Of a stretch of 64,000 bases of DNA, positions 1,705 to 61,860 are shown piece after piece. The stretch's first letter is position 1. Every line of letters begins with the position of its first letter. The translations under genes were made by a program, and so were the position numbers. Source of the stretch: Sipunculus nudus. Its lineage: Eukaryota > Annelida > Sipuncula > Golfingiida > Sipunculidae. The stretch spans positions 60,014,889 through 60,078,888 of the forward strand of contig CM049315.1 in assembly GCA_026874595.1 (NCBI GenBank). Reading direction: 5' to 3'. The notes below the pieces were generated by a model. That model was not told where the DNA came from. It saw only the letters and a program-made list of their open reading frames with translations, and ran no database searches.

Positions 1705-1879
1705 ACAAGGCATACAGGCCTAATGAAACCTGTGCATTGGGAAATACACCAGGTATAATGCTTCAATGCTGGACCATGACTTCTCATGTATATGAACAAT
1801 GCAGGTACTAAACATTTTGAATAAGAAACAATTACACAAACACCACTGTTGAAATTATGGAATGGGTGCACACAACACA

Positions 1880-2050
1880 ACTAGGGACCCATGGGTCTCA
1901 AGGCTCAGTTGAATTTGTCTATAAGGATATTTTGAAAGAAATTTTTCAGAATGACAGTCCTGTGACCTTAACCAATGACCTTGTAACCTAAAAATCTTAG
2001 AACTTAATATCCTTGAACTTGCAGCATTAGGATTATTGTAACAATCTTTA
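1880..2050 (+). mobile_element. Solo P1-family 5' end
   Basis: ACTAGGGACCCATGGGTCTC followed by GGCTCAGTTG matches the P1 5' terminus (hairpin GACCCATGGGTC plus subterminal GCTCAGCTG). A second P1 5' end begins 171 bp later at 2051, but only one P1 3' end follows (3773). This is therefore a truncated copy or a doubled 5' end. Confidence 0.6.
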
Positions 2051-3773
2051 ACAAGGGACCCATGGGTCACGGCGCTCAGCTGATCGTGATTGGACTATAA
2101 ATGTTTTTCCACTGTGATACTATATCGAGTCGATAAAGCTTATGAATATCATGTACATGTTGGGCTATTATAAAGGAATGTAATGTAATATGTGAGTAAA
2201 TGATAAATGAAATTACCTGACTGATGGATTAATAGAGTCAAATAAAGTGGTTTATTTTTTATTTATTTAGGAGGGGTTGAAAATTGTGATATATTTGAGC
2301 AAATATGAATGCAATGACAGCAGTAATAAGCAGTAGTAGATGATAAGGCTATTTGTTGAAGGATCTAAAGTGTATGATAGTCTGCAAGCGTTCAATTTGA
2401 CAGATATGATGTTATGATTAACTATGCTGATGAAGTGATTTATGAATATGTGACTGTATGACACAATATCTCTTTAGTCTTGACAAGGTACATTATTGTG
2501 ATGCCCACTATGTCTACATTTTACACAATATTGACATAATTTCTGGCATGTACATAGGTACCTATGGACGAATAGTTATACAAAATATTAAAGTATGAAT
2601 ATATCTGATTCATCTTGTTCTTGCTTACTGAGGCTGACTTTGGGATGGGGTTCAGAGAAGGGAAAAGTGAGGGCAGCACGAAGGTGGATGTAGAAATATT
2701 CTATTGTAATGTTTTTCATTTATATAAGAATATGAAAAGCTAAGAGGAAAGGGGCCCTCCTACTTGGTTATAGTAAAGTTCTAAATATATGATTCCAAAC
2801 TAATACTCTGACAAGACTGTCATGAAGAAAAACAGTAAAAGTTTTGAGATACTGTGTTGCATACGAAAATTTACAGATGGACAGGCAGGTGGACAGAATG
2901 GACTAATACCTTTATTTCACTTTCAAGAGAATAATGCATTTAAGTTTATATATAATCCTATTTTTTTAAGCAGATCCACTTTTTCCATTAAGAAGTTTTT
3001 ATCTGTATCATTTTTTTATTTACAGGTTTATAAATTTTTAATTAAAAAACATGAAAATATAAGTTAAAATATTAGAATTGTTGCAAAAGTTGCAATCATT
3101 ATATATACAGAGTAAAAAACATTGGGTCATATTATGCATACACATATATTTTATTATTTTTAAATCATAAATGTTTTAACTGATTTTAAATATCAAACTT
3201 AACTGGAGTTATCCTCTGGAAACTAATTTGTGTGGATGGATGGATTGACAGACAGACAGACATACAAACAGACAGAATGACAGACAGGGTGATTAGTATA
3301 GGGCATCCACTTGTTATCAATAAACACACCAAGTTTGGGGACACCAGATGTAATGACAGATGAGAAACTGACATGAGTGTTGTCATTTTATAGTAAACAA
3401 ATAGAAAAATATTTGTTAAATAGGAAAACCACCACGTTTCAGGAACTGACAAAACTAGTCATAGTCAATATTCAAGGCAAAATTCATGACAAACCATGCA
3501 TTAATTATCAAGATATTGGAGGTTTTGTATCAAATTTTTTACTATTCTGGGGGGTAATTTCAAGCCCCATGGCTCGAAGGAAAAAGGTCGCAGTGACCTA
3601 ATTTCAGGTTTCCAAGGTAATTTTTAATTGACCTCCCTGGATGTTCACTTAGAAGTTTCTAGGACCAGCTGTTATAATTTGTGCCCTGCTAATAGACGGC
3701 CGGACGTCTAGATTACGACAAACAAAGCGCCATTCCTATACCTCAGTTGACTTACAGTCAGCTGAGCTAAAAA
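2051..3773 (+). mobile_element. P1-family HINE/pearl-like element
   Basis: It starts ACAAGGGACCCATGGGTCAC, followed by GCTCAGCTG, and ends CAGTCAGCTGAGCTAAAAA at 3773. The 9-bp GCTCAGCTG and CAGCTGAGC are inverted repeats near the ends. A GACA/GGAT-type microsatellite lies at about 3230-3300, and the P1 internal block 'atttctggcatgtacatagg' occurs near 2540. The 3' hairpin is more diverged than in other copies, so this is an older insertion. The copy is 1.7 kb against 2.5 kb for the copy at 9.5 kb. Confidence 0.7.
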
Positions 3774-4110
3774 TGATTGTAGCTGCACCACCAGTCTTGT
3801 ATACAAAAAGGTTTCAGAGATATATACATATGCCCAAGTTCAGACTAATATATCAAACCCCTCCTGAGAAATAAGCAAGGACACACACTGTGCAAAAAAT
3901 TATTGTAGGTGGCACCACCAGTCTTGTATACAACAAGTGTACGATAATTAAAGTACGATAAATATAAATATGCCCAATTTCAGGATGATATATCAAATTC
4001 CTCTATAGAAATAAGCAGGCACAAAAGTCACACACTGTGCAAATGTCATTGTAGGTGGTGACACCTGTCTTGTGAACAAGAAACCCATCAAAGACACATA
4101 GACAGGTCAA
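3774..4110 (+). repeat. Diverged palindrome-core monomers of P2
   Basis: Three related starts at about 3779, 3905 and 4051 (GTAGGTGGCACCACCAGTCT and variants) give periods of 126 and 146 bp. This is the same alternation as the 129/148-bp monomers of the intact arrays. The palindrome is eroded to GGTGGCACCACC or worse. Confidence 0.65.
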
Positions 4111-4184
4111 AATATTAGGCCAATACATCAAACTTACCTTAAGTCTGACGCATGGGGCTGACCACGCTTAGGTAAGAAAGGCAG

Positions 4185-4530
4185 TTGCCCTGAGTGAACT
4201 GTGACAAATTTGCTAGCACAGGCTACTGCACTGAGTGAACTCATGACCTGCACCTGGCTAGACTGGGTGAACTTTTGACCTCTACCTGGCTGCACTGAGT
4301 GAACTCTTGACCTGTTGCCTAATCTGATACAGTTGACAGTCTGCCAAAGCTAAAAATAGATTGGCTCCACATGCAGCCCTGAGGGGCATGACACCCATGA
4401 GGTGATCACCTGGTGCCCATGAGGTGTTCACATGTCACCCATGAGGGGATCACATGCCTTGTGCTTGGCTGCACTGACTGAACTCTTGACCTACATCTGG
4501 CTGCACTGAATGAACTCTTGATCTATTGCC
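4185..4530 (+). repeat. Irregular minisatellites
   Basis: Repeats of 'ggctgcactgagtgaactct' followed by 'tgacct' recur with irregular 35-60-bp spacing. At about 4380-4460 there are three copies of a unit near 25 bp containing CCCATGAGG. Both lie inside the P2 element body. Confidence 0.65.
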
Positions 4531-6650
4531 AAATCTGAAACAGTTGGCAGTTTCTTAACCTATGTAGATATACAGACACAATCTTGGCCTGTTGGCAAAT
4601 CTGTTTACACATACTGAAAGACTTTGGCTAAAATGCTTTTTTTTCAAGCTAAAATAATCATAAACTTTTTATAAAAATATATAGAAAAATTAAAGATTCA
4701 GTTCTTTCATTGTTAAAGGTCCAATAATTCTGCCAAAAATCATTCAAGTAAACTTGAACAAAGGCCACCTAAGAATTTTTTTTGTGCCATGTAACAGAAT
4801 TTATAATTGAAACAATAATTTTGTAGAAGAACAGTTTTGCAGTCCTCAGTTTGAGTTAAACAATATTATGGCCATAAGACCAACTTAAGTTTTTCTTATA
4901 TGATTGAAAGAACCATGTCCTACGATAATTCTTTTGAAAAACTAAATGATTCAACTTGACAGTTTCATCATAAACATTTTAAGCTGAAAGGGGCTAAAAT
5001 TATGAGGTTTTTGCCCATAAAAAACAGGTCAATGTAGGTGGCACATCAAAATCTGCAACTTCAAATATGAGTCATGTCACCAACATTTGCACAATACTTG
5101 GTAATGCTAGCTTCTGTCATTTCTGAGATAACTATGTCAGTATGCTTACTTGGCCAAATGACCATTCAAATTCATTTAACTCCACTAAAATTCATCAAAT
5201 GCAAACCATTTGAACAAACTTGGGAGTGCTTGCCTCTGGGATCATTTCTGTAAAATATTGAACAATTTGGCTGGACTGTTTAAAGGAAGACTTTTAAAGG
5301 TTTTTCAGCTTTTCCCCTATAAAATCTAAGTAAATGCAGATAGCAAAAACATAAGCTGAATCCCACAACATTTGATATGTGACAGATAATTGCATAAAAT
5401 CTGGGGATGGTAGCACCTGCAATTCCTGAGAAATTATGGGTTGATATACAGATGACCAATGACCCCCGTACAAAAAAAGGTCAAGGCAGGTGGTGCCACC
5501 AATACCTGAATTTCATATATGACTCATGTGACCAACACTGGCATAAAATTTGGTGATGATAGCTCTGGCCGTTTCTGAGATTGTCATTTTAGTATGCTTT
5601 TTTGGCAGATGACTAGGTTCAACTTCCTGTAATTCGGCCAATATTCACAGAACTTGAACCATTTGAACAAACTTGAAAGAGATGGTATAAATGATAATTA
5701 CTGTGAAATATTGAACAAATTGGCTTGACCGTTTCAGAGGAGAAGATTTTTAAAGTTTTTTTAGCTTTTTCTCTATTCTCTAGCTCCATTCGTTTTCAAA
5801 ATAGTATGGGTTAACGTATACCTGTGATTGTAAACATTACCTGGCATGAGGAATATCTAAAATCATAAATCTACATTTTTTAAAAGTTTTTAAAAAACAT
5901 TCTTGTCAATATTAACCAAAGATAACCAGAAATCTAAATGTCTGGAGGCATGATGTAACGGATGCAGATAAACTCGTTCCAGGCTAGATGTATCTGCTTC
6001 ACACAGCTAACATATATGGTAAAATGACTCAATTCAATCTTTATTATTCAGCCAAAATTCATTCTTTGGAACCATAAAAGACAATTATTATAAGAATCAT
6101 TCAGGGGATTATTCTTGTAAAATATTAAACAAATTGGCCTCAGTGGCGTCAGTCCAAAAACGTTTTGCAAATTTATAACTCATATGGGAAAATAAAGCAA
6201 AAAGGCTAAGTTAAGCTTCCAATAACTCAGCCAAAAATCACTGAACCAAAACCATTAGAACAAATTTGAATTATCAACATCTAAGGATAATTAATGTGTT
6301 AGATTTAAGAAATTGGCCCAGTGGTTTTTGAGAAGAAGATCTTTGTAGCAAAAGAGCTAAAATGGGCTGTTATGGCATGTGACTAAATTCAGCTTCCCAT
6401 AACTCAGCCAAAAGTCACTGAACTGAGACCATTTGAACAAACTTAAGAAAGCACTACCCCAGGATCATTTCTGTGTGATATTAAACAATTTGGCCAAATG
6501 GTTTCAGAGAAAAGTTTTTTGTAGCTGTCAGTATGATACGGGCACCGATGACCTCGTTCAAAAAAGGCCGATGCAGGTGGACCAATACCTGAATTTCAGA
6601 CATGACTCATGTGACCAACATTGGCATAAAATTTGGTCATGACAGCTCCA

Positions 6651-6769
6651 GCTGTTTCTAAGATTGTAATTTTAGTAAGCTTTTTTGGACAGATGACTAA
6701 GTTCAACTAGCTGTTTCTAAGATTATAGTTTTAGTAAGCTTTTTTGGACAGATGACTAAGTTCAACTAG
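6651..6769 (+). repeat. 59-bp tandem duplication
   Basis: The segment beginning GCTGTTTCTAAGATT at 6651 is repeated from 6710 with very few differences, ending at AAGTTCAACTAGCTGT. It is a local duplication in the P2 tail. Confidence 0.85.
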
Positions 6770-7161
6770 CTGTAACTCGGCCAAAATCAACAAACTTAAA
6801 CCTTTCGAACAAACTTGAGAGAGATTGTTCCAGGGATCATTTCTGTGAAATATAGGACAATTTGGCTGAACAGTTTCGGAGAAGAAGATTTTTAAACTTT
6901 TTTTACCTTTTTCTCTATAAAATCTAAGAAAATGCAGTTAGCCAAAAAATAAGCAAAATCTGATAGAGTTTTTTAGATGACTATTTTTTTGCAGAAAATT
7001 TCTTGATGCAAACTCTTGCCATTTTCAAGATAGTATGGGTTAACGTACAGACGATGGACGACAGCCGACAGATGCTGGACGACGCCACACCATCGCATAA
7101 GCTCACAGGTTCGCTAAAAATACCAAGACCTATTTGTTCACCCCACAGACTGCATTATAAA

Positions 7162-8232
7162 AGATACCATGACCTTCTTTTGGGGCTCTTAGATCTCATC
7201 CAAACCTCTCTGTATTTCAAGAATGAACTTAAACATCTAACAGTTATGATCTGCTTCTGACAACTTTCAGTTAGCTCAGGAAGAAAGCAAAGCCATATTC
7301 ATGAAATCTAATGACACCAACAGAGGAAACAGATCATGGTGTGACTGAATGAATGAATAAATGAATATTTTATTTATGTATATAGGCCTCCAGCCATAGA
7401 AATATACAATCCATCATATATAATTTACACATCATTTATAAATCACACAATAATATGTGGTGCTCAAACATCACAAGGCACATATAACTTTCTCACACAA
7501 AAACTGGGCTAAAATTAATGGAAATGAGTCCCATTTCTTTATGTGTTCAAATACACTTATTTTATAACAGTTTACTGCTAAATACGAAAATAAAATTAGA
7601 TGTGAAATTATAGGAATAATGCTTCTAAATATAAATTACTATCAAACTACTTGTTAGCAGCCATTTACATAAACAAAAGTGGTTTTGTGCCTACATGAAT
7701 CTGCTCATTTTACATCTCCTGTCTCTTAACACATCTGCCTGTCACTCAAACTGACTGACACAGTATTTTATTATGTACAAGCCACACAATTAAAGCCAAA
7801 TGGGATCTGATACAAGGGACTTGCAGGAGAGACGGATGGTTAAATGAAGTTTTAATAGTAACATGCTGGCTGCTGGCAGTTGTCATGGCAACCATTTACA
7901 ATATTAAAAAGCCTTGTTTCGGTGTCAGTATTTAGTAGTCAAATCATTCAGCCAGCAGTTACAGTGCTCAGACTGTCAGTTCAAGTACCCAGACTAAAAT
8001 GGAAGCAAAGCTCTGCTAATCAATAATAACATGTTTCTTTTCCCTGTTGATTTAAGGAAAATACATTTCTGAATAAGTAATAGTAATCTGGTTGTAAGAG
8101 GTTCAAATGTATGTCTTTCAATTTTTCTGTCTATTTTTGTTGTCTGTGTATAATGTAAATGACAAAGAAACTGATGTGGTTAAGTGATATATTTGTGAAG
8201 GTTCAGTGTTCTAATAAACACATACTTTGTAG
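7162..8232. other. No gene recognised
   Basis: About 1.1 kb of AT-rich sequence with a short GAAT microsatellite near 7345. I see no long frame, no protein motif and no end of the families described here. Confidence 0.5.
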
Positions 8233-9533: not shown

Positions 9534-12025
9534 ACAAGGGACCTATGGGTCACAACGCTCAGCTGTTATATATGATAAAAAAATTTTATTTAGAAATGAG
9601 GCACATGCTGGTTTTGTGTGGTAATAAATATAACCTGTATTATGAGTTGTTGTTGTTTAGCTTATGTATAATATAAGAGTTTAACTATTTATTAAAAAAA
9701 TTACAAATATTGTCCCAAATATAATTTTTATTAAAAATAATAAGAGAATATGATTTTTTAAAATGAAATATAACTGATATGATTATTAAAATAATATTAA
9801 AGAATATATTCATGAATGCATTCATGAATACATTTTGAAAGTATTTGCACGAGTATTCATATACTTTCATTTTTACCTGAATTCCCATTCTTTATGCAAG
9901 AAATTTTATAATGGAGTACATAATCATATTCGTATTTAAATACAATTACAAAGTATTCGCACCATGTCTGGTATTTATTCAGTTTTCACCAAACAATGAT
10001 GTTGAGAATCCAGAATATACAAAATTCACACATTTAAATAATGATCATAAGTACCTGGTTTTATGGCTTTTATTTATATTAAAAAATAACTGTAAAAAAT
10101 TCATTTTGGGCTAATTTCACATCAATGTACACACTAGACACAGTAGGAATCTAGATTAATATTATCAACTGCATCTTTGTCTATCATTAATTTCCTTCAT
10201 ATAATCCTTAATGATTAGTAATGAATAATATGATTTACTTCTTTATCATTAAAAATGAACTGAAAAATGCCATAGGTGACTGCATGGTGTTATTTGGAAT
10301 ATGTGACATTCTACCCATCGATACAAGATTCTTATATCATCAGTAACTGCAAGTTAATTTCCTGTTATTATAAACTAACAAATTCCTTTTCTATTTTTCT
10401 TTAATTTGTTATTAAAAACCAATAAAAATTTATTAATTTATTGTTTATTGTTATGTTGTTGGTTAAAACTACTAGATGAGTTGGGTTGAACACCTGGATC
10501 AACTGTGGCTGGCCATAAGCTGCCTGGATTCTCCCCTCAAGCGTGCATAATTTGATGAAAGGTCAACAAGGTCAACATACAGGTGACTCAAGAGGGGCTG
10601 GAGAGAGCCAAAGTCTGACAGGGTCTCATAAAAAACATTAATAAAAGCTACAATATTTGGCAAATTTCTTTCAGCTTTCTAAACTAAAAAGCTGAAATCC
10701 TTATGTGTGCATGATATGAAAATTATATCAACAGTGCTCACGGGAAACAAACGTGCCATGGTCACAGTTGGGCAAAATTTAAGGTACTAATTTTATATTT
10801 ATACTAATAACTTATAAAATTTGAAAAATTCAGAACTAATTTTAGGTGTTCAATTGAATCTTGATTAAATAATGTTACATCCCTGACAAAAAAGATCTCT
10901 AGCTTCAGCAATGCCCTTGTTAAGGGAGTAAATATATTTCTTGATTTTTTACAAAGTGCATTATGTTTGGGCCCATAACTTAAAAAAAATACACAATACT
11001 GACATCATTTCTGGCATGTGCATAGTGAATGTATAGAAAAATATGTATATTATATATGATCAAAGTCAGATCAGTGGTTTTGATATTAGGCAGTCTTAAA
11101 GTGTAACATTGGGTTTTTAATGGAAAAATGAAGTTTTTCATTGATATCTCGAAGGAATTAAGTCCTAGTGACCAAATTCTTGGCATGGTAGGGGATTTTG
11201 GAGAAATCTAACTGTATGCCAAATTTAAGGAACTTAGAGCTGAAGCTCGGGAGCTGAGCTCTAGCAAACTGCATAACACTAGCAATATGTGACATGGTGC
11301 TTGAAAACTTGAATAAAATCTACAGTTTTTGATCAACTGTTTTCAAATTTTTGGTGTTAACAGTTGAAATGCTAACAAAAACATGCTGTGAAAATTAAAT
11401 CCACAGCAGTTACAGCAAAAAAAACGTGCCATGGTCAAAGTTGGGAAAAATTTAAGGTACCAATTTTTTATTTTTGCTAATATTTTTAAAAATTTAAAAG
11501 ATTTTGATCTAATTTTGGGTATACAATTTAATTTTGATTAATAAAAGTAATATTACTGGAAAAAAAGTGCTTAGCTTTAACAAGTTTGGTGTTAAGTGAT
11601 AAAATTTCTTTCCTGATTATTTACAAAATGCATTATGTTTGGGCTCATAACTTTTTTAAACTAAATAATACAGACCTAATTTCTGGCATGTACATAGGAA
11701 TTATATAGAGGATTATTTATAGGAAATATGAGGAAAAACAGATGAGTGGTTTTGATATTAGGCAGTCCTAAAGTGTGAAAATAGGTTTTTAATAAAAAAT
11801 TGAGGTTTTTCCTTAATTTCTCAAAGGAATGAAGTCGCAAAGACCCAGTTTTCGGCTTGGTAGGAGATCTTGGGGACATCTAACATTATGCTGAATTTTG
11901 GATTCCTAGGTCTTACGGTTTCAAAACGTGCCACATCTACGGACGGACGGACGGACAGACGGACGGACGACGGACAATGGACCACGACTATAGCTCAGAT
12001 GACTTATAGTCAGCTGAGCTAAAAA
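9534..12025 (+). mobile_element. P1-family HINE/pearl-like element, full length
   Basis: The 5' end is ACAAGGGACCTATGGGTCAC plus GCTCAGCTG. The 3' end has a (GGAC)n microsatellite at about 11940-11980, then a hairpin (TAGCTCAG pairing with CTGAGCTA, inner GACT-TAT-AGTC) and AAAAA. Inside are two related core units about 673 bp apart (ACGTGCCATGG at 10751 and 11424) and a 24-bp perfect palindrome at 9807-9830. It is almost identical to 30501-33132, so both are recent. No replicase, helicase or other protein is encoded. The family match to pearl/HINE elements is by architecture. Confidence 0.8.
9807..9830. repeat. 24-bp perfect palindrome in P1
   Basis: It runs from TATTCATGAA to TTCATGAATA and is its own reverse complement. 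The identical palindrome sits in the two other P1 copies that keep this region (30043-30066 and 30897-30920). Confidence 0.9.
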
Positions 12026-17335: not shown

Positions 17336-19210
17336 CTTTAACAATCTTAAAAGTGTATAACATAGAAGTCAAATGTTGACAAGGATAAGGTCATATTTAC
17401 ACATGTTTGTAGTCTCCTTTTTCTTCTATTATCCTGTGAAAAAAATATAACTCGATCCAACATTATCCAAATGCATGTACACTACAGCCATAGTGTTTGT
17501 TCTCCCATCGCAGCCTGAAGTCCTTGGGAGTATACTGCACTTTAATTATAATAAGTTAATTTATGTGAATATTTATATTTATCAAAAGTAATAAATTAAG
17601 TTTATGTAATCAATTAAAATCATAATAGGTACAGTAAAAACCTTTCATTCACAAATAAAGTACAGCTGATCAAATGATTCTTTGAATATCAACAGCAGAT
17701 TTATATATCCTCATGCACTCACCTTTCCATGATAATATGTTGACCAGTTTTATATGCTCCATGTTAAAAAATAAACAAGCTTGAAGGTAGTGCAGCTGTT
17801 TTGCTGTGATGACAGACCAATCAAATTATATGCTGCTCTGCCTGTGTCTGTGCTGATCTTACAGGACTGACAGGACAGACCTGGGATTGTTCAGACTGGC
17901 TGAAGGAAGGCCCGGAGGTTTTAGGAAGCAGACAATATCCATATCACACCCACGCATTACAATACGTCTCAGTGTCTCCACACAGCATTCTCATGCTGGG
18001 AACCTGGATACTGCATGGTCAAGGGAAAATCAGCCAAGTCTAAAATACAACTGTCATCTGAAGAGAAATAAATCCTTAGCTGTTTATCTAATACATCACG
18101 ACCCTAAAAATCATAACCCAAACCAATTATAAAGGATTTTTTTAAATCCTGGCATCTGACAATATATATTTCCTGATATTGCTCATCTCAAAGCACCATT
18201 AATTCACCTAAAATTAACATAAAAATTGGTCTTATTTATCTTCTGACAAAATGCTCGTTAAGAAAATCAAAATTTAAGAGAGAAAGATCCACAAATATAA
18301 ATGAGGTAAATAATGCCCTCTTTAATTATTGTCAGGAGCTTAAAAGAGAAATGCAATATATGGTAAAAACCAATAATATTTCCTTTGTTTCAACCAAGAG
18401 CCAACAATATCCTAAATATAAATGTGTAAACCGTAGAACAATACTGAAATAGCATCATGGCTTTCACTGATCACATACCACTGTATTCACAACAACAGGC
18501 TGACATGCAATATATAATAACCAAGCCAAAACAAGTCAAGCTCAATACTCTGACCATGGGCTAAAATGTTTATGTGGTTCTTACTGAACAGGCTAATGTA
18601 ATTATAGTAAAGGTATATATCAAGTTAGAGTATAAATGGTTAGTATTGTAGAGATTTAACTTAGTGACCATGCTGTGATCACCAGGTTTTCAGCTGGTAT
18701 CACAGCATGATACAGGCTCCGCATCTGGTGATGACCACAATATAGTTAACACATGTATGTATAGGGGAACCCCCTGTGTGTTTGTAGTCTTAGTTTGCCA
18801 TCATCATACTCAGCAGGTAGTCAGGCTCACATATATATCACCATTAGTTCTAAGAGGATCCACGATATCTAGAATATGTATTTTGTAATAATTGAGATAT
18901 TTGAATATACATAGAAATTGTAATTATCCTAGACAATGGAAAACACCAGTTCTGTGTAATTTATCATATAAATATTTAATATTATGCGCTGAGATTTGGT
19001 GCATTCAAAGTAGTAAAGATGAAGTTTAATTAGTGTTAAATACAGGATATTTCATATTATATTATAGAAGTTATAGGTATATTAAGCCATGACACAAAAC
19101 ACAGAAATTCATTTTGTCATGATTTTAGGGGTAGAAGTCATAGCGTCAGTCACTCTCAGCCAGCCAATCAGCTCCCTGCTGGGGGTGATTACTTAAGACC
19201 AGATGCCCAT
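17336..19210. other. No gene recognised
   Basis: AT-rich sequence up to the LINE insertion. The short frame at 17887-18132 has no recognisable motif. Confidence 0.5.
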
Positions 19211-19223
19211 TAACAGTCACAGA
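19211..19223 (+). repeat. LINE target-site duplication, left copy
   Basis: TAACAGTCACAGA here is repeated exactly at 23636-23648, bracketing the retrotransposon. Confidence 0.75.
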
Positions 19224-19232
19224 TTTTTTTCC

Positions 19233-20306
19233 ATGGCATCATTCCAGCTGTGGACACGCAAGTGTCAAGACCGCTCGGACTGTTCCCTGTTCCTGACTGC
19301 AAGTGGGCCTAAAGTAGTGGTGAGAGGGCTACCCTTGGCGGTCCAACAGAATGGACGCAGGATAGCCGGAGCTGTCAAACAATGTTTGTGTGAGAGCCAA
19401 ATTTTGAGGCTCAAAGAAGTCAGAGGAGACATACACGTGTATGTCAAAGAAGTGGAGGCCGCAGAAAAGGCAAACTGGGACCCAGTGAGGGCACTGGGCT
19501 CAAAAAGCTCGAATATAGGGATTATCATGCCTGGACAGCAGGATAATCAAGACAGTACACACAATAACAAATCAGTTATTGTAAAGGGTGTAAAGCCAGA
19601 AATAACGATCGAGGAAATCTCAGAGGATCTGGCTGAAAAGGGGCAGCCAGCAGAGAAAGTTGTACGCTTTAAGTACAACAATAAACCAACATGGGAGGTA
19701 CTGGTGACCTTCCAAAAAAGCACGGATGGGGCCGAGGTCGTAAAATCAGGCTTCAAGTACGCCTATACTAGATATAAGGCAGTGGCATACAGACAGGTAA
19801 AAGGGCCAAATCAGTGCCTGAATTGTCTGGAATACGGACACGCCACGTGTACCTGTGGCAAACCGCACAAATGCAGGCAATGCAGACAGGAGGGTCATAT
19901 AGCCAAAGACTGCGAGAGACAGTCTGTGGAACCCAAATGCGCAAATTGTGGAGGCAACCACAAAGCCACATACAAGGGGTGTGAACGCTACCAGGCACTA
20001 CGGGGCGAAAAAGTAGCCAAACTGAAGGCTAAGGCCCAAGAGAAGAAACAGAAGGTTTCTTACACACAGGCTGCCCAACCTGCCGTGAAAAAGCAAGTAG
20101 CGGAGTATGAGCCATTCGTTAGGTTCATGTGCGACATCAATACCGATATGTTCGCTACGCTGGGAGTGGAGTCCAGCAAAGCAACTAAGATCGTACTGGA
20201 CAGAGCGGAGAAACACTTAAAGGTCAAGCTCCCGGCGGGGGGAGAACCTATCACTGAAAGAAGGTCCCTGATACCAGTCAGGCGGGCAGGCACTGAAGCC
20301 CCCTGA
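19233..20306 (+). CDS. LINE ORF1, gag-like nucleic-acid-binding protein
   Basis: It binds the element's RNA in a ribonucleoprotein, by analogy with other Jockey-group ORF1 proteins. An upstream in-frame ATG exists at 19203, but it lies outside the element, in flanking DNA and just before the target-site duplication. I therefore take ATG 19233 (357 residues). Numbered from 19203, the zinc knuckles are Cys205-Cys208-His213-Cys218, Cys224-Cys227-His232-Cys237 (both CX2CX4HX4C) and Cys246-Cys249-His253-Cys260 (CX2CX3HX6C). A basic Lys/Gln-rich stretch follows. The frame is intact to the TGA at 20304, in contrast to ORF2. The protein is shorter than typical arthropod Jockey ORF1. Confidence 0.85.
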   Translation: MASFQLWTRKCQDRSDCSLFLTASGPKVVVRGLPLAVQQNGRRIAGAVKQCLCESQILRLKEVRGDIHVYVKEVEAAEKANWDPVRALGSKSSNIGIIMPGQQDNQDSTHNNKSVIVKGVKPEITIEEISEDLAEKGQPAEKVVRFKYNNKPTWEVLVTFQKSTDGAEVVKSGFKYAYTRYKAVAYRQVKGPNQCLNCLEYGHATCTCGKPHKCRQCRQEGHIAKDCERQSVEPKCANCGGNHKATYKGCERYQALRGEKVAKLKAKAQEKKQKVSYTQAAQPAVKKQVAEYEPFVRFMCDINTDMFATLGVESSKATKIVLDRAEKHLKVKLPAGGEPITERRSLIPVRRAGTEAP

Positions 20307-20364
20307 CCTCAGGCAAGGTCCTGTGATGAATCAAACGGGTTCAAAAAGTCAGTAAAAAGCAAAC

Positions 20365-25774: not shown

Positions 25775-25820
25775 GACCGGTATGAAAACATAGTATCCCC
25801 CGACTTTGTCTGGGGATACA

Positions 25821-40192: not shown

Positions 40193-40339
40193 ACTAGAAT
40201 ACGGGTAGTCGACAAGCGACTACGTGTATCCGCCAAAATCAGAGAAGGACGGGTGAAGTGAGGCATGGATTGAGTGGCAAGGGGATATAGAGTTACATAT
40301 GTAAAATATTAGTATTGGATCTCTGCCACATAAACATGA

Positions 40340-41430: not shown

Positions 41431-41595
41431 TGGGTTTATGTGTGTAAACAGACGCACAAACGGACGCTGGGCAGAGACGAAAGGTCAGAGGTCAAGGTCA
41501 CTTGGTTAGGCACCAGTTCACATGTGACCCGATAATTTTTGTAAGTTTCGGAAAAATCTGTCCAGTAGTCTCAGAGGAGTTCTCCGGAAACGAAC

Positions 41596-41596
<1 letters not shown>

Positions 41597-41626
<30 letters not shown>
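41597..41626 (+). repeat. (CGG)10 microsatellite
   Basis: Ten CGG units just before the P3 3' hairpin; the longest such run in the window. Confidence 0.95.
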
Positions 41627-41813
41627 AACCCGGTCAAAAACATAGTATCCGCAAAACTTCGTTTTGGCAGATACAATAAACAATGTATATACACAATGTG
41701 TTTATTCTCGTCATATCGTGTTTCCCTATACCTTAAACCTCTATACAACATCATGCCGCTGGAAAGCTTCGTAGACCCATTTCTACCAAGCATTAAGACT
41801 GTTGTAACGATGA

Positions 41814-42569
41814 ACTAGAATATCAGCAAAAGCTGACAAAAGCCCTCAGCCAAAAGAACAGTGTTTAGAGGTGGTAACAGTAACAAGTACTAAATATCTG
41901 TTCTCACATGGATGTATATCTGTACATGTCTCAGTTATAAATTTAAAATGGAGAGGTATGTACCATGATTCATAACAATCCACCAAATGCTTCCTGAAAA
42001 ATAAGCTTCTAAGTTTTATTCTATTATAAGCTCTGTGACCTTGAAAAGTAGGTCAAGGTCACCCATCTTCGAACATGAACGAGATTTTTGTCGATATACA
42101 TCTTCACCAAAGAAATAAAGTTCCTATTGTGAATCCTTTTAGAGATATCCCGCTCACAAGGCCAAAGTTGAAAAATCCAAGAAAAATTCAATAAAAAATC
42201 AGAAATTGCAGGTGGCGCCCCCAAACTTGTGCAGCAGTTACAGACCATCAGTCCCTATGATTATAGTAAGTATTGTGAAAATCCATCCAATGGTTCCTGA
42301 GAAATAAGCTTCTAAATGTTTTTTCTATAATCAGCTCTAAAACGTAGAAAAATAGGTCAAGGTCACCCATCTTCGAACTTGACCGAGATTTTGTCAATAT
42401 ACATCTTCACTGAAAAAATTAAATTCTTACGGTGAATCCTGTTCAAGATATTCCGCTCACAATGTAAAAGTTAACGGACGCCGGACGGATGGATGGACGG
42501 ACGGACGGACGGACGAACAGCTTGGGTGACGACAATAGCCCATCAGCCTAAGGGCTGAGGGCTAAAAAA
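41814..42569 (+). mobile_element. P5-family HINE/pearl-like element, 756 bp
   Basis: The 5' end ACTAGAATA is followed by the hairpin TCAGC-AAAA-GCTGA and then AGCCCTCAGCC. The 3' end has (GGAC)n (about 42490-42515) and CCCATCAGCC, then GGCTGAGGGCT and AAAAAA. AGCCCTCAGCC and GGCTGAGGGCT are perfect inverted repeats. Two diverged units (around 42000-42170 and 42290-42460, sharing 'aggtcaaggtcacccatctt') form the core. One eroded palindrome (GGTGGCGCCCCC) is at about 42211. This is the shortest complete element of this plan here. Confidence 0.75.
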
Positions 42570-43858: not shown

Positions 43859-44674
43859 ATCTCTGCCAAATGACAGCTAGGTGATCTTGTTTGAGTAGTT
43901 TTCTTCTTGACAGTAAAAGTTAAATCAGTTGAATCAGCTGAATAATGGCAAGTTTAAGTAGAAGTCATAACTGCTCACATGACTGAACTGCTCATTTGTA
44001 TGGCCAGGCTCCCATAATATGGCCACACAGATAAACCTGCTCCAGCATAATGCAGAGTTAACTGCTCAGTTATTTGGCCTGACATCCAGCCCAAGCTGAG
44101 TACAAATGAGATATGGCTGACAAAACACCACATGGTGTTCAGCTGCTTTCTAGGGGTAAAGGGAGCCTAGCATTGCAGGGCCAGCTGTAATTTTCACACC
44201 TTTGCCCTGACCACAATTTTGACCCAGAACTAATTACTTAGGGTCACCACTGTGCTTAAACAACTGACTGCTGACCCTTGTGACTCATAATTACAAAAAT
44301 TTATATGAAGTATTTACATGCTTGAAAAACATTTCATATATATGAATAAATTTTCTGTTCCCCATTTTAAAATCTGGAAAAACCAAATTTTGAACAAGGC
44401 CTACAGGCCTAATGCGAACCTGTACAAAGTTTGAGAGTATGAATGGAGGTTTTTTTTTTAAATTAATATTGCTCCTTTTAAGTCCTGCATATCTACCTTT
44501 GTCATTATGATTTAAGCAAAATGGACATTTCGGACCTGCAAGTTTCAGACTAGGACATTTTAAAACTAGAATATGGGTAGTTGACAAGCAACTGTGTGTA
44601 TCCGCAGAAATCAGAGTGGGACGGGTGAAGTGAGGCATGGATTAAGTGGCAAAGGGAATAGAGTGAGGTGTATT

Positions 44675-46640
44675 GCATATTAGCTTGGATGTCTGCAGCG
44701 TAAACATGAATGTACATGGTGCCACCTGTCATAAAATCGAGAAAATTGTCCAGGATGTATAAACCTGCAAAATTTCAGGTGGATAAGTCAAACCACTGCT
44801 GAGATATAAGTGATTTCATCCCAAGGCAGATGAACAGATGGACGCTGTGCATAAATGGTTGCAGGTGGCGCCACAAGTTTTGCCTATGATGAAGAGCTAT
44901 GTGAATTCTATACACATGCAAAATTTTGGCCAAATCTGTCAAACAGTTCCCTAGATATGAGCTTGGATGTCTGCAGAGTAAACCTGAATGTAGGTGGCGC
45001 CACCTGTCATAAAATAGAGACAGCTGTCCAGGAGGTATAAACCTGCAAAATTTCATGAGGATAAGTCAAACCACTGCTGAGATATGAGTGGTTTTATCCC
45101 ACGGCAGATAACAGATGGACGCTGTGCATAAATGGTTGCAGGTGGCGCCACAAGTTTTGCCTATGATAAACTATGTGAATTCTATACACATGCAAAATTT
45201 TGGCCAAATCGGTCAAACCGTTACTGAGATATGAGCTTGGATGTCTGCAGAGTAAACCTGAATGTAGGTGGCGCCACCTGTCATAAAATCAAGGAAGCTG
45301 TCCAGAATGTATAAACCTGCAAAATTTCATGTAGATAAGTCAAACCACTGCTGAGATATGAGTGATTTTATCCCAAGGCAGATGAACAGATGGACGCTGT
45401 GCAAAAATGGTTGCAGGTGGCCCAACCAGTTTTGCCTATGATGAAGAGCTATGTAAGATCTATACACATGCAAAATTTTGACCCATTCAGTCAAACAGTT
45501 ACCGAAATATGAGCTTGGATGTCTGCAGAGTAAACCTGAATGTAGGTGGCGCCACCTGTCATAAAATCAAGAGCCCTGTGCAGGATGTATAAACCTGCAA
45601 AATTTCATGTGGATAAGTCAAACCACTGCTGAGATATGAGTGATTTTATCCCAAGGCAGATGAACAGATGGATGCTGTGCCAAAATGGTTGCAGGTGGCA
45701 CCACCAGTTTTGCCTATGATGAAGAGCTATGTGAATTCTATACACATGCAAAATTTTGGCCCAATCAGTCAAACGGTTCCCGAGTTATGAGCTTGGATGT
45801 CTGCAGAGGAAACCTGAATGTAGGTGGCGCCACCTGTCATGATAATCAAGAATGCTGTCCAGGATGTTTAAACCTGCAAAATTTCAGGTGGATAAGTCAA
45901 ACCACTGTTGAGATATGAGTGATATTATCCCAAGGCAGATGAACAGATGGACGCTGTGCAAAAATGGTTGCAGGTGGCGCCACCAGTTTTGCCTATGACG
46001 TAGAGCTATGTGAGATCTATACACATGCAAAATTTTGGCCCAATCAGTCAAACGGTTCCCGAGATATGAGCTTTAATGTCTGCAGAGTAAACCTGAATGT
46101 AGGTGGCGCCACATGTCATAAAATCAAGAAAGCTGTCCAGGATGTATAAACCTGCAAAATTTCAGGTGAAAAAGTCAAACCACTGCTGAGATAGGAGTGA
46201 TATCATCCCAAGGCAGATGAACAGATGGACGCTGTGCAAAAATGGTTGCAGGTGGCACCACCAGTTTTGCCTATGATGAAGAGCTATGTGAATTCTATAC
46301 ACATGCAAAATTTTGGCCCAATCAGTCAAACGGTTCCCGAGATATGAGCTTGGATGTCTGCAGAGGAAACCTGAATGTAGGTGGCGCCACCTGTCATGAA
46401 ATCGAGAAAGCTGTCCAGGATGTTTAAACCTGCAAAATTTCAGGTGGATAAGTCAAACCACTGCTGAGATATGAGTGATATTATCCCAATGCAGATGAAC
46501 AGATGGACGCTGTGCAAAAATGGTTGCAGGTGGCACCGCCATTTTTAGTGTATGTTATAAAGCTATCAAAGGGCTACATTTATGCAAAATTTTTAGCCTG
46601 ATCGGTCAAACGGTTCCCGAGATAGGTGGGTTTATGTGTG
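44675..46640 (+). repeat. Long palindrome-core array, about seven 278-bp dimers
   Basis: The same dimer as at the window start. Dimers begin near 44826, 45103, 45377, 45655, 45935, 46211 and 46492 (AGGCAGATGAACAG or close). Several palindromes are perfect (for example 44994, 45270, 45548, 45823, 45973, 46378); others are eroded by C/T or A changes. The 61-residue frames recurring at one per unit are repeat by-products. Confidence 0.88.
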
Positions 46641-46833
46641 GAAACAGACGCACAAATGGACACTGGGCAGTGAGGAAAGGTCAGAGGTCAACCAAAAATG
46701 AGGGCGCAGCAGTTCACATGTGACCTGATGATAAACCCAATTGGCTTAAAATGCAAACCAAGTTTTTTCAAACAGTTGAAAGAAATAGTTCCAATAATCT
46801 GGGAATTCTGCATCTAAACATATTGTCTAGACA

Positions 46834-46861
46834 CCCCCCCCCACCCCCCCCCCCCCCCCCC
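46834..46861 (+). repeat. Poly-C tract C9-A-C18
   Basis: C run in the P2 tail, homologous in position to 879-891. Confidence 0.95.
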
Positions 46862-47669
46862 GAGCCAGGTCAGTTGCCATGGTGATGTCTGGACCCCACC
46901 TGTTTGTACTGGGTGACCTCTTGACTTGGCTGCTGAAACTCAGAATGTTGTCAAATATGTTTTCAAACACAGAAAGCCTTTTTCAAATAGCTACAATTCT
47001 TTTTTAAAGCTGTATTTACCCAATCTATTCTTATAAAACTGGCAGAACCCTACCATAGAATAATTCTTGTAAAGTTTAAACCAATCAGCTTAACAGTTTC
47101 ATCATATATCAGTGTATAAACTAGAAGAGTTTAAAATTACATTTTCGCTTGTAAAAAACACATCAATGTAGGTGGCACCACCAATACCTCAATTTCAGAT
47201 ATGACATATGTGACAAACATTGGTGTAAAATTTGGTGATTATAGCTCTAGCCGTTTCTGAGATTTTAATTTTAGTTTGCTTTTTTGGACAGATGACTAAG
47301 TTCAACCTCCTGTAACTCGGCCAAAAATGTCCAAACTGGAACCATTCGAACAAACTTGAGAGAGATTGTTCCAGGGATCATTTCTGTGAAATATTGGACA
47401 ATTTGGCTGGACAGTTTCAGAGAAGAAGATTTTTAAAGGTTTTTAAGCTTATTCTCTATAAAATCTAAATTAATGCAGATACCCAATAATAAACTCCAGG
47501 GCACCAAGTTTCACATGTGACTAATTCTTACATGTAATTTGGAGCTGCTAGCTCTGACAGTTTCTGACTTACAGCCATGGATGGCGGAAAGCCAGCCCTG
47601 GACGGCGGACGGCTGACGATGGACGGACGACGCTACGCCATCGCATAAGCTCACAGGTTCGCTATAAAA

Positions 47670-55977: not shown

Positions 55978-57879
55978 ACAAGGGACCTATGGGTCACTAT
56001 GCTCAGCTGAAGTTGACCTTGAAGGTAAAAATCTAAAATAATATCAAATGGAGATGCTGTGTAAGAGGAAGAGGTAATAAAGGCCATGATTGGTTTATAT
56101 GATTGGTTTGTATTGATGAGCAAGAAATTGTTGCAAATAATATTTTGTGACCTAACCATGTGTTTCCTAATGTTGAAATTGAAGCATGTGAGCAGTTTGT
56201 GAACAAATGATCTGTAATATTACCATGATCATTAGTTGGCTTTTTGATTAACTGTTGACATTTCAGTAGTTTACACATTTGTTTAATTGAATCTATTTTT
56301 TGTATAATATATTTTAATAAATATAAATGTATTTTTTTAATGAAATTTATACAGCTGAAATATAACTAATTAACAACATAAAACAGGGCAAACAAAGCCT
56401 GATCTCAAATTCTGCTGAGGCAGGAAAATAATGAACAAATGTTTGTATTAAATCCTCATTTTTTTATTACATCAATTTTTTTTATTATAAGTTTATATTT
56501 CTATACATTTCCAATATAACATATATATCCGAATATAAAAGTTGATTCATAATTCTTAATTGCATCATCATAAATCTCAATCTTGTCAGATAACACCACA
56601 TCATGCATACAAATGTTTATTTATTTTTTACCACAAAAATATATCTTTTAAATCTGCAAAACAATAAATATCTTAAAATAATACCTGATTTAGATTTCAC
56701 AATTTTTAAATGTGTCTTTATTTATCCATAATGTGCTTCATATTTTATAAATTTAAGCATACCGATGGGTTCAATTATATTTGTTAAAATCATTTAAAAG
56801 AAATTGATTTCTTTAAAAATGCCACATTACACAACATTGCATCTTCTGGATTATACCTTGAATTACCTTTTCAAGGAAAGTTTTTGCATATCGGAGTGGA
56901 AACAGCATTAAAATGAAGGAGATACAGTGAAAACAATAACAATTACTGCATAACACTTGGTGGGTTGGGTTTGCGGGGTGGGGGGTGGGGGGTGATTGGG
57001 ATGGTGATATGAGAATAACTGTACACCTGTCACAGCAGGGGATCTCCCCCAGTGACTGTAACAAATCAGAAACCCTAGCATAGCTGACTTCCATTGACCT
57101 GGAGTGGGACCCTGCATCTGTAATCTGTATCAAAGCAAATGACTACAACAGAGCCTCAAGAAAAAAATCAATAACTAGCCTAATTTTCAAGCTTTTATTT
57201 TCAAATTTCAGATTTAAACAAATTAAATATTTATGTTTACATGCTGTGAAAATTAAATCAATGGTACTAACAGAAAAAAAACGTGCCATGGTCAAAGTTG
57301 GGCAAAATTTAAGGTACTGATTTTATTATTATGCGAATAACTTAAAAAATTTACAAAATTCAGATCTAATTTTGGGTAAACAATTGAAACTTAATTAAAC
57401 ATAGTTATATACTTGGGAAAATAGACTCTAGTTTCAAAATTTTTCATGTTAAGTGAGTAAGTATTTTTCCTGATTTTTTACAAAGTACATTATGTTTGGG
57501 CCCATAACTTAAAGAATTTATACTTAACAGACTTAATTTCTGGCATGTACATAGAAACTATATAGAGGAATATTTATGGTAAATATGAGGAAAAACAGAT
57601 GAGTGGTTTTGATATTAGGCAGTCCTGAAGTGTGAAAATAGGTTTTTAATAAAAAATTGAGGTTTTTCCTTAATTTCTCAAAGGAACGAAGTCGCAAAGA
57701 CCCAGTTTTCGGCTTGGTAGGAGATCTTGGGGACATCTAACATTATGCTGAATTTTGGATTCCTAGGTCTTACGGTTTCAAAACGTGCCACATCTACGGA
57801 CGGACGGACGGACAGACAGACAGACGGACAATGGACCACGACTATAGCTCAGATGACTTATAGTCAGCTGAGCTAAAAA
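55978..57879 (+). mobile_element. P1-family HINE/pearl-like element
   Basis: The 5' end ACAAGGGACCTATGGGTCAC is followed by GCTCAGCTG. The 3' end has (GGAC)n and CAGA units (about 57796-57830), then the TAGCTCAG...CTGAGCTA hairpin and AAAAA. The 3' half (from about 57230) aligns with the second core unit of the copy at 9.5 kb. The 5' half is different and very AT-rich (56280-56830). Confidence 0.75.
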
Positions 57880-58638: not shown

Positions 58639-58649
58639 AACCAGTACAA

Positions 58650-61600
58650 ACTAGACATTTCTTGGCACCGCAGGTGCCAGAGTATCCCCAGACATAGTAG
58701 CCCCCCCCCCTTTATAAATAGACCCCCATTTTTAGCAGCATATACTGACACTTGGCATATTTATTGTTTCTTCCATCTAACATTCCACAATCTTGTTGAA
58801 GATGTTGGTCCTGTGACCTTGATCTTTTTAAAGATGTGTCCTGTGACCTTGACCTTTGACCTCATGACCCCAAAATCAATTCTGGTCTTGCTATTCCAAT
58901 GGGACATATGCAAGTTAAGTTTGAAATCTATACATCAATAAAGCAGGAATTATCACCCAGAAACTAATTTTTGGACAGATGGCTCCTGTGACCTTCACCT
59001 ACGACCTTGTGACCTCAAAATTGATAGGGGTCTTCCACTCTTGGCAGGTGAACTATATGTGCAAGATGAAAGATCTGAGATGAATTGTTTAGCTGAAAAT
59101 GCATCCACAATCTTTTGAAAGAGGTTTCCTGTGACCTTGACCTTTGACCTCATGACCCCAAAATCAATTCAGGTCTTGCTTTTCCAATGGGTCAAATTCA
59201 AGTCAAGTTTGAAATCCATACATCAATAAAAGAAGGAATTATCATCCAGAAACTAATTTTTGGACAGATGGCTCCTGTGACCTTCACTTTTGACCTTGTG
59301 ACCTCAAAATTGATAGGGTTCTTCCACTCTTGGCAGGTGAACTATATGTGCAAGATGAAAGATCTGAGATGAATTGTTTGGCTGAAAATGCATCCACAAT
59401 CTTTTTAAAGAGGTTTCCTGTGACCTTGACCTCATGACCCCAAAATCAATTCAGGTCTTGCTTTTCCAATGGGTCAAATACAAGTCAAGTTTGAAATAAA
59501 TACATCAATTAAAGAAGGAATTATCATCCGGAAACTAATTTTTGGACAGATGGCTCCTGTGACCTTCACCTTTGACCTTGTGACCTTGTGATAGGGTTCT
59601 TCCTCTCTTGGCAGGTGAACTATATGTCCAAGATGAAAAATCTGAGATGAAATGTTTGGCTGAAAATGCATCCACATCTTTTTAAAGATGTGTCCTGTGA
59701 CCTTGACCTTTGACCTCATAATCAATTTGGGTCTTGCTTTTCCAATGGGACATATATAAGTCAAGTTTGAAATCCATACATCAATAAAAGAAGGAATTAT
59801 CATCCAGAAACTAATTTTTGGACAGATGGCTCCTGTGACCTTCACCTTTGACCTTGTGACCTCAAAACTGATAGGGGTTCACTCTTGGCAGGTGAACTAT
59901 ATGTGCAAGATGAAAGATCTGAGATGAATTGTTTGGCTGAAAATGCATCCACAATCTTTTTAAAGAGGTTTCCTGTGACCTTGACCTTTGACCTCATGAC
60001 CCCAAAATCAATTCAGGTGTTGCTTTTCCAATGGGTCAAATACAAGTCAAGTTTGAAATCCATACATCAATAAAAGAAGGAATTATCATCAAGAAACTAA
60101 TTTTTGGACAGATGGCTCCTGTGACCTTCACCTTTGACCTTGTGACCTCAAAATTGATAGGGTTCTTCCTCTCTTGGCAGGTGAACTATATGTGCAAGAT
60201 GAAAGATCTGAGATGAAATGTTTGGCTGAAAATGCATCCACAATCTTTTTAAAGATGTCCTGTGACCTTGACCTTTGACCTCATGACCCCAAAATCAATT
60301 TGGGTCTTGCTTTTCCAATGGGACATATACAAGTCAAGTTTGAAATCCATACATCAATAAAAGCAGGATTTATCATCCAGAAACTAATTTTTGGACAGAT
60401 GGCTCCTGTGACCTTCACCTTTGACCTTGTGACCTCAAAACTGATAGGGGTCTTCCTCTATTGGCAGATGACTTACATGTGCAAGATGAAAGGTCTGAGA
60501 TGAAATGTTTGGCTGAAAATGCATCCACAATCTTTTTAAAGATGTGTCCTGTGACCTTGACCTTTGACCTCATGACCCCTAAAATAAATTGGAGTCTTGC
60601 TTTTTCAATGGGACATATATAAGTCAAGTTTGAAATCAATACATCAATAAAAGCAGGAATTATCATCCAGAAACTAATTTTTGGACAGATAGCTCCTGTG
60701 GCCTTGACCTTTGACCTTGTGATCCCAAAATTTATATGGATCATCCACTATTGGCAAGTGAGCTATATATTCAAGATGGAAGACTTAGGATGAAAGTTTA
60801 GCTTAAAATGCATCCACAGTATCTTTTAAAATGCCAGTCCAGTGACCTTGACCTTTGAACTCATGACCCTAGAACCTAAAGGGTTCTTACTTTAGTGGTG
60901 GGCCATACATAAGTCATGTTTGAAATCTATATGGCTATCAACACTGGAGATATCATAAGAGGTGTGTGATTTTCACCATATATGGCAATATTCAAGGTCA
61001 AGGCCACTATCATAGGAAAGGTCATGACCCCAATTTAAATAACCATCATCCCATAACCCATACCTATGTATATGCATAATATAAAAGAAATCTGTCCATT
61101 AGTTTTTGACTTATAATGCTCACAGTACTGTAAGGTGGCAATTTTGGGGGTATTAAACGGCACGAAAACAAGTAAAGAATAATAGGTGGCGCCACCAGTT
61201 TCTGGAACATGACAACCCTATCCATGATCTTCCATCAAGTTGATTTTGGGATAAATCCATGCAAGATTTCTTGAGATATTAAAGAATTTGTGTGATTGTC
61301 CCCAAAATTGGACCTATTCAAGGTCAAGGACACTCTCCTAGTAAAGGTTATGACCTCATTTTAAATAGGCGTCGTCCTCTCACCCATATCTATACATATA
61401 CCAAGTTTGGTAAAGTTCCCTGAAATATTTTTGGGGTTATCGCGCCAACAAGATTTATATGCGGCGGCGGCGGCGGGACCGGTATGAAAACATAGTATCC
61501 CCCGACTTTGTCTGGGGATACAATAATAGGTGGCGCCACCAGTTTCTGGAACATGACAACCCTATCCATGATCTTCCATCAACTTGATTTTGGGATAAAT

Positions 61601-61860
61601 CCATGCAAGATTTCTTGAGATATTAAAGAATTTGTGTGATTTTCCCCAAAATTGGACCTATTCAAGGTCAAGGACACTCTCCTAGTAAAGGTCATGACCT
61701 CATTTTAAATAGGCGTCGTCCTCTCACCCATATCTATACATATACCAAGTTTGGTAAAGTTCCGTGAAATATTTTTTGGGTTATCGCGCCAACAAGATTT
61801 ATATGCGGCGGCGGGACCGGTATGAAAACATAGTATCCCCCGACTTTGTCTGGGGATACA
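58650..61860 (+). mobile_element. P4-family element with duplicated 3' end
   Basis: Same 5' end as 23801 (ACTAGACATTTC, hairpin, GTATCCCCAGAC). The core is longer, about 15 monomers against about 8. A complete 3' terminus is reached at 61521 ((CGG)5, hairpin), followed at once by a second copy of the last 340 bp ending at 61860 ((CGG)3, hairpin). GGTGGCGCCACC lies at 61185 and 61529. Confidence 0.82.
58810..60870 (+). repeat. P4 tandem core, about 15 monomers
   Basis: Type A (TGACCTTGACCTTTGACCTC) and type B (ACCTTTGACCTTGTGACCTC) monomers alternate every 140-148 bp. Repeated frames such as 59187-59372 and 60031-60216 are repeat by-products. Confidence 0.85.

Follow-up and report, generated by a model that had tools for sequence, protein, structure and literature searches.

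Probable Helentron-derived (HINE) families in a 64-kb stretch of the Sipunculus nudus genome, one of them sharing both termini with a resident Rep-helicase Helentron

Helentrons and their non-autonomous forms, the HINEs, are the closest described systems to the five repeat families (P1 to P5) that we analyzed in a 64,000-nucleotide stretch of the Sipunculus nudus genome (G000:C10:60014889-60078888), hereafter called the window. In the oyster Crassostrea gigas, Cg_HINE consists of a left module with a 5' subterminal inverted repeat (subTIR), a complementary inverted repeat (IR) and a microsatellite, and of a right module with a 3' subTIR and a palindrome (PMC7492417). Features common to our elements and to Helentrons, DINE-1 and HINE-Mo are Rep, helicase and endonuclease, subTIRs, the 3' palindrome, the TT target and the absence of a target-site duplication (TSD); unlike in Helentrons, CTWG stands ahead of the 3' T in P1 to P5 (PMC4067079). 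Proto-Helentron-Pi has 5' TT and 3' CTAG and is inserted between A and T (PMC4067079). FoHeli/Helitron2 of Fusarium resembles our elements in its asymmetric inverted repeats, in the hairpins at both ends of some copies and in the described copies with two 5' ends, and differs in its terminal letters; an endonuclease is not mentioned for it in the available text (PMC5148889). As set out below, P1 to P5 are very probably HINE families, with P1 mobilized by a resident Rep-PIF1-endonuclease-like Helentron that has matching termini.

Terminal anatomy and abundance

The genome searched comprised 1.43 Gb in 153 contigs, and the termini in the window were located by fuzzy search. "Head" denotes what an earlier note on this DNA had called the ACWAG start, namely the canonical 3' end, and "tail" denotes the canonical 5' end. 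That note had placed ACWAG and its hairpin at the 5' end, and the second hairpin with the microsatellite at the 3' end; this orientation has to be reversed, and P1, P3, P4 and P5 match the layout of Cg_HINE when they are read on the minus strand of the window. The likeness extends to the subTIRs of 11-12 bp, the IR beside the 5' subTIR, the microsatellite of the 5' module (GTCY-type in several), the satellite-like core and the 3' subTIR with its palindrome; P3 and P4 differ in their CCG microsatellites, and other units of 3-8 nucleotides have also been reported in the oyster (PMC7492417).

The canonical 5' starts, read on the minus strand, are TTTTTAGCTCAGCTGA in P1, TTTTTAGCGAACCTGTG in P2, TTGTATCTGCC in P3, TTGTATCCCCAGAC in P4 and TTTTTAGCCCTCAGCC in P5, and the canonical 3' ends are formed by a palindrome that precedes or overlaps CTTG-T (P1 and P2) or CTAG-T (P3 to P5). 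Inverted subterminal motifs were seen by eye in all five families, with subTIRs that lie close to the 5' end and at a greater distance from the 3' end, and all five have a palindromic sequence near the 3' end. The proposal of a single terminal layout is borne out in part. When the 5' subTIR and IR were folded as a single strand, the folds of P1, P3, P4 and P5 were each matched by 0 of 200 shuffles, and that of P2 by 151 of 200, that is, no hairpin beyond chance. The hairpins that had been assigned to the 5' end are the 3' palindromes; those of P4 and P5 were clearly better than shuffles (2 of 200 as good, each) and that of P3 nearly so (9 of 200), but P2 was unclear (22 of 200) and the P1 palindrome did not form a hairpin beyond chance (162 of 200).

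The families had also been described as unrelated in sequence. Their subTIRs and palindromes do differ, but the 5' letters split them into two groups (P1, P2 and P5 share TTTTTAGC; P3 and P4 share TTGTATC), and a 12-bp palindrome, GGTGGCGCCACC, occurs inside P2, P3, P4 and, with one mismatch, P5; the word "unrelated" is therefore too strong. With at most one mismatch, GGTGGCGCCACC was found at 31 sites in the window (0.02 expected), for example at 40-51, 1200-1211, 25477-25488, 40345-40356, 42211-42222 and 61185-61196, and the same search found none in the P1 copies of the window. A further site lies near the 5' end of the P1-type Helentron C_C17 (see below). Among 100 listed P3 copies, left and right changes of the palindrome looked by eye as if CpG sites had decayed independently (CG to TG or CA), and compensation was unsupported; one double change was seen across Helentron subfamilies (TGACCCATGGGTCA to TGGCCCATGGGCCA).

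The ACWAG start with its hairpin, proposed as a fresh recognition signal, is the published 3' terminus of Helentrons and HINEs (PMC4067079, PMC7492417); the architecture was already known, and the finding as first posed was ordinary. The W is not a family mark, because CTTGT and CTAGT both occur within the P1-type Helentron lineage. The signature of canonical Helitrons (5' TC, 3' CTRR, insertion between A and T) was not seen: the 5' ends are TTAGC or TTGTATC, the target is a T tract, and CTTG of P1 and P2 does not fit CTRR, whereas CTAG of P3 to P5 would.

The fuzzy search found 13 heads in the window, all 13 on the plus strand. The motif GACCCATGGGTC, with at most one mismatch, had 6 matches against 0.10 expected; the stem counts of P3 and P4 were equalled in 0 of 100 shuffles each, and that of P5 in 5 of 100. 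The P2 motif with two mismatches, which is weak alone, had four matches (two of them the P2 heads), a count reached in 3 of 100 shuffles. The genome-wide search that the earlier note had called for gave 8,465 matches for P3, 6,692 for P1, 6,638 for P2 (exact pattern), 4,623 for P4 (at most one mismatch) and 2,454 for P5 (at most three mismatches); control patterns of P1 to P5 read backwards gave 0 genome matches for each family. A P4 pattern with an overly wide gap, which found only 10 odd copies, was dropped.

Insertion without duplication and the partner of P1

A complete empty site was available for the P1 copy at 30501-33132 (minus strand), which is inserted in another P1 copy (29644-35378, minus strand) and splits it; both the copy at 9534 and the inserted copy itself preserve the empty site in legible form. 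The empty site reads ...CACCTATGGCATTTTTCAGTTC and the filled site CACCTATGGTATTTTTAGCTCAG ... CCCTTGTTCAGTG, the left junction being also given as ...GGTATTTTTAGCTCAG. The insertion added the element and two Ts within a T tract, and comparison of this one site, a check proposed at the outset, revealed no TSD. The 3' end of P5 was CTAG-T in 12 of 12 fetched copies (from 100 listed of the 2,454 matches), although the search pattern did not contain these letters; the next base was T in 11 and C in one, and in two of the 12 the stretch that was fetched extended as far as the 5' end.

A search of the genome with the profile PF14214 gave at least 143 matches (150 of 195 candidates scored). Six Rep loci were read, and one of them, C_C17, was extended to 24 kb. 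C_C17 has an open frame of 2,342 codons from stop to stop, which is directed toward the palindrome (3') end; it has P1-type 5' ends at 6826 and 7550 on one side and a P1-type 3' end at about 21714 on the other. A stretch of 2,230 residues of its protein has a Helitron Rep domain (95.8 bits) and a PIF1 helicase domain (82 bits; both Pfam), HUH and YxxxY-K motifs were found by pattern search, and the C end resembles Exo_endo_phos (20.6 bits, under the curated Pfam cut-off of 24.5). A Rep/helicase element with the ends of P1, which the earlier note had suggested looking for, thus exists, with an endonuclease-like C end and with both termini matching.

The boundaries of C_C17 were supported by further copies. 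Its last 1,315 bp was found full-length at 98-100% in at least six places including itself, and at 90% in a seventh (40 of 1,490 candidates scored). Six other 3' ends of C_C17-type copies had flanks that were unlike by eye, and five of them ended in CTTG-T, the 90% copy having CTTTT. At the 5' boundary, the copies on C10 and C17 become similar at the same base and have unlike flanks; the comparison rests on these two copies, in which the 5' end was reached, the stretch of the C5 copy beginning within the element. Fourteen regions downstream of further Rep open reading frames (ORFs) were then considered, 13 taken from the 1,315-bp matches and one from the PF14214 matches. Thirteen of the 14 have a P1-type 3' end oriented like the Rep ORF (0-8 mismatches of 32); in one of these, L049, it was identical to that of P1 and followed an endonuclease frame that looked broken by eye. 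The P1 family, with its thousands of copies, is linked by both ends to a resident Helentron, unlike the oyster HINEs, for which such a link was sought without success and no relatable autonomous element is given in the available text (PMC7492417).

P1 is classed as a HINE because of its anatomy, its T-tract target, the absence of a duplication and this partner. P2 to P5 are HINEs on their anatomy, and they may be served by the protein of P1 or by related proteins. The canonical 5' end comprises TT, the subTIR, its inverted copy (as a hairpin in P1, P3, P4 and P5) and the microsatellite, and the 3' end comprises the second subTIR copy, the palindrome and CTWG ahead of a host T. In the proposed mechanism, the partner protein of P1 would nick at the TT end, one strand would be displaced, displacement would halt at the palindrome/CTWG end, and the single strand would be inserted between Ts. 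C_C17 is itself a composite, with two P1-type 5' ends and an internal P3 copy nested inside it. Copies with two 5' ends, as in Fusarium, would fit a mechanism that is initiated at one 5' end and terminated at a 3' end farther on.

Some results count against this account. The P2 5' end and the P1 3' palindrome fold no better than shuffled sequence, the full empty-site evidence comes from one P1 site, and T tracts blur the assignment of Ts to element or host. The downstream region L045 had no P1-type 3' end, and no Rep-bearing element ending in P2 to P5 termini was found in the six loci and 14 downstream regions, with a set of patterns that did not include the P2 5' end.

It is this last point that bears on the proposal of one Helentron-like replicase. 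The Helentron-like part holds for P1, but a single replicase serving all five families, diverged only in sequence, seems doubtful. The CTWG-T 3' end in all five families speaks for it, as do TTTTTAGC in P1, P2 and P5 and GGTGGCGCCACC in P2 to P5 and in the P1-type C_C17; on the other hand, the subTIR and palindrome sequences differ among the families, the Rep elements with visible ends carry P1-type ends only, and the P1 HINEs of the window lack GGTGGCGCCACC. We consider the chances even that at least two Helentron lineages are involved, one of the P1/P2/P5 type (5'-TTAGC) and one of the P3/P4 type (5'-TTGTATC, CCG microsatellite, CTAG). Terminal letters are common within each group, and a further Rep family (A/B), which has OTU and endonuclease domains, is present, its ends lying beyond the stretches read; however, none of the A/B elements was seen with P3/P4 ends, and GGTGGCGCCACC was not found in the 15-17 kb read from each of four of them.

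That the families are miniature inverted-repeat transposable elements (MITEs) or foldback elements moved by a terminal-inverted-repeat (TIR) transposase is highly improbable. They do have inverted repeats, and the bivalve element Pearl was originally called a MITE (PMC7492417), but the repeats are subterminal and asymmetric, unlike those of TIR transposons, the nested P1 site has no TSD, and the partner of P1 is a Rep/helicase.

The A/B family comprises L001-L008, L014 and L015; L001 has an OTU protease domain and an endonuclease domain of 50.1 bits, and in the copies on C4 and C8 the ORF is followed by kilobases of tandem repeats of about 330 bp, the element ends lying beyond the stretches read. 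The C/D Rep ORFs (L009-L013, L016 and L017) have an N-terminal coding part with tandem repeats about 63 bp apart, the number of which apparently varies.

Strand of neighboring copies

In bacteria, copies of IS608 and the IS200/IS605 elements have a non-random orientation along the chromosome that follows the direction of replication, and IS608 prefers the lagging-strand template (review, PMC5371812). The copies analyzed here resemble them only in having an orientation that is not random, and the bacterial elements have a different transposase. Neighboring HINE copies share a strand more often than chance would give; this coherence is new, was unexpected and is the most surprising of our results. 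No report of strand domains for Helitrons or Helentrons was found in searches of the open full-text literature, which includes the available text of PMC4067079, PMC5148889, PMC3288121 and PMC5371812 and leaves most subscription papers outside it.

Strands were compared for the first 100 listed places per family on contig C1 (57 for P5 there); for P1 and P3 the listing covered no more than the initial 11.5 Mb of one contig. Among cross-family pairs (P1, P3, P4 and P5) with a spacing of 5-20 kb, 51 of 56 were on the same strand. For the set of five families (C1, 0-12.1 Mb), heads less than 3 kb apart were merged, by which 326 heads became 280 units, and one mixed unit was dropped. Same-strand pairs numbered 60 of 69 at 3-10 kb, 91 of 102 at 10-20 kb, 138 of 177 at 20-40 kb, 213 of 294 at 40-80 kb, 705 of 1,092 at 160-320 kb and 1,812 of 3,507 at 0.64-1.28 Mb. 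Agreement in shuffles was 52%, and 0 of 1,000 shuffles reached any value observed below 0.64 Mb; the strand changed 67 times along the region, against 134 in shuffles. Within the first 1.2 Mb of C1 all 71 heads (52 units; P1 25, P2 24, P3 18 and P4 4) were on the plus strand. On C1 at 12-47 Mb, where P4 and P5 alone were compared, 27 of 36 pairs agreed at 3-80 kb.

As a control we used a tRNA-like short interspersed element (SINE) pattern with 2,053 matches, of which 100 were listed (86 units, C1 3.4-63 Mb; a small sample). SINEs showed no coherence (6 of 17 pairs on the same strand at 3-80 kb, 28 of 64 at 3-320 kb), and in 4 of 11 cases they lay on the strand of the local HINE majority; compared with P4/P5, the Fisher p was 0.008 at 3-80 kb and 0.02 at 3-320 kb, values that are approximate since pairs share members. 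Two other controls were discarded: a tRNA-box pattern (653 matches), in whose 100 listed places tRNA-gene arrays and SINEs were mixed and which the SINE-specific pattern replaced, and a long interspersed element, which failed with 12 matches.

Domains of common strand would be expected if the transposition intermediate were single-stranded and entered whichever strand a host process exposes. Each chromosomal domain (tens of kb, once more than 1 Mb) might then receive HINEs in a single strand polarity, for example through insertion into the lagging-strand template of a replication fork, and the fossil copies would record past fork direction. We regard this as rather unlikely, its probability being reduced because long-range coherence is weak on C1 beyond the first 1.2 Mb, and the following results tell against it. 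Without that part of C1, the coherence is strong only below 20 kb: same-strand pairs were 37 of 46 at 3-10 kb, 63 of 74 at 10-20 kb, 76 of 115 at 20-40 kb, 137 of 216 at 40-80 kb, 225 of 404 at 80-160 kb and 700 of 1,385 at 320-640 kb, and 1,133 of 2,522 (45%) at 0.64-1.28 Mb, which is under all shuffles. With P2 left out, cross-family pairs agreed there in 34 of 56 cases when 20-50 kb apart, in 71 of 101 when 50-100 kb apart and in 99 of 201 when 100-200 kb apart. Among adjacent heads that belong to different families and are separated by 20-100 kb, only 25 of 46 agreed. Among 20 flanks taken from the 71 heads of the 1.2-Mb domain, nine share stretches of 27-146 bp, by eye HINE parts, and the P3 flanks L059 and L062 agree up to the head and may represent one copied insertion. 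Three of four 5-kb pieces of the domain are satellite arrays, and runs of A5+ exceed those of T5+ in all four (39:3, 47:0, 5:1 and 18:7). The Rep loci, with families and fragments mixed, showed no clear coherence (21 of 38 pairs at 8-320 kb, 7 of 9 at 8-40 kb), and among pieces near chromosome ends C4 left (plus) and C1 right (minus) agreed with elements pointing to the chromosome end and C10 left (minus) disagreed. Such a telomere rule was unsupported: these three were the ones with a clear HINE among ten 5-kb pieces taken some 100 kb from the ends, and the rule is also contradicted by individual elements close to the left ends of C2 (672953, minus) and C6 (441937, minus).

Composites, satellites or selection are possible causes of the strand domains. 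We consider it about as likely as not that the common orientation of neighbors is a by-product of composites or nesting, of duplicated blocks, or of the A/T-tract polarity of the target. Of the 100 P2 heads listed, at least 16 have a P3 3' terminus 150-214 bp inside, and no P3 terminus on the opposite strand was found within 300 bp of these heads. Such P2-P3 composites argue for a by-product, together with the short range of the effect, the 25 of 46 adjacent pairs, the shared flanks and the A5+-rich satellite pieces. Against this, heads less than 3 kb apart had been merged before counting, 11 of the 20 flanks had no match to another flank, SINEs on the same contig are incoherent, and A4+ and T4+ runs were balanced in the 20 flanks (47:42), as were A and T runs in most HINE bodies (exceptions: P5, 15:5, and one P2 piece, 37:27). 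Regional base skew was also weighed as a cause: four plus-strand pieces had mixed AT skew and all had more A5+ than T5+ runs, and four minus-strand pieces were mixed (9:12, 16:9, 9:5 and 16:11). If the coherence of HINE neighbors, which SINEs do not show, held genome-wide after masking of composites and satellites, it would offer a means of asking by sequence alone which DNA strand eukaryotic rolling-circle transposons enter and in the course of which process. The pieces L070-L072 (C1, 0.3-0.68 Mb) are satellite arrays, their units measuring about 1,270-1,330, 1,723 and 424 bp.

Copies in the window

The heads were all found on the plus strand, and the copies below are read on the minus strand, the lower coordinate being the head and the higher one the tail end. 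Besides the two nested copies described above, P1 HINEs lie at 2051-3773 (3' end CCCTTG-T at 2051, 5' subTIR/IR hairpin at 3773; the 5' part is 71% alike to the 5' region of C_C17), 9534-12025 (ACGG microsatellite at 11939-11975) and 55978-57879, and a degenerate P1-like 3' terminus with six mismatches lies at 1880-1911.

A P2 HINE at 1705-7120, the extent of which was deduced from its head (3' palindrome and TTG-T at 1705) and its tail (5' end TTTTTAGCGAACCTGTG at 7120), encloses the P1 copy at 2051-3773. The 5' part of a further P2 copy (1-1663, tail at 1645-1663), with a P3-type tandem array of 278 bp, continues beyond the window. Nearly identical sequences of about 40 bp adjoin both P2 tails (1641-1745 and 7098-7180), and a P2 head directly follows the first of them and none the second; these may be tandem P2 copies with 40 bp of flank between them, perhaps caused by a bypassed end. 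A P2-P3 composite is placed at 44394-47668, again with a deduced extent; it is a P2 copy with a P3 3' terminus and a P3-type array inside, and the P3 head at 44565, which has no tail of its own, is part of it.

A P3 HINE at 40193-41677 has a 280-bp array, a CGG microsatellite and the 5' hairpin TTGTATCTGCCAAAAC...GCGGATAC. P4 HINEs lie at 23801-25822 (288-bp array, CGG microsatellite, 5' hairpin TTGTATCCCCAGAC...GGGGATAC) and at 58650-61862, where a stretch of about 344 bp including the canonical 5' end is present in two tandem copies (61178-61862; tail ends at 61524 and 61862). The P5 HINE at 41814-42568 has an ACGG microsatellite and the 5' hairpin TTTTTAGCCCTCAGCC...GGGCTA. The plus strand at 19203-22637 carries the remains of a retrotransposon without long terminal repeats (non-LTR), with a zinc-knuckle ORF, an endonuclease and a reverse transcriptase assigned by eye.

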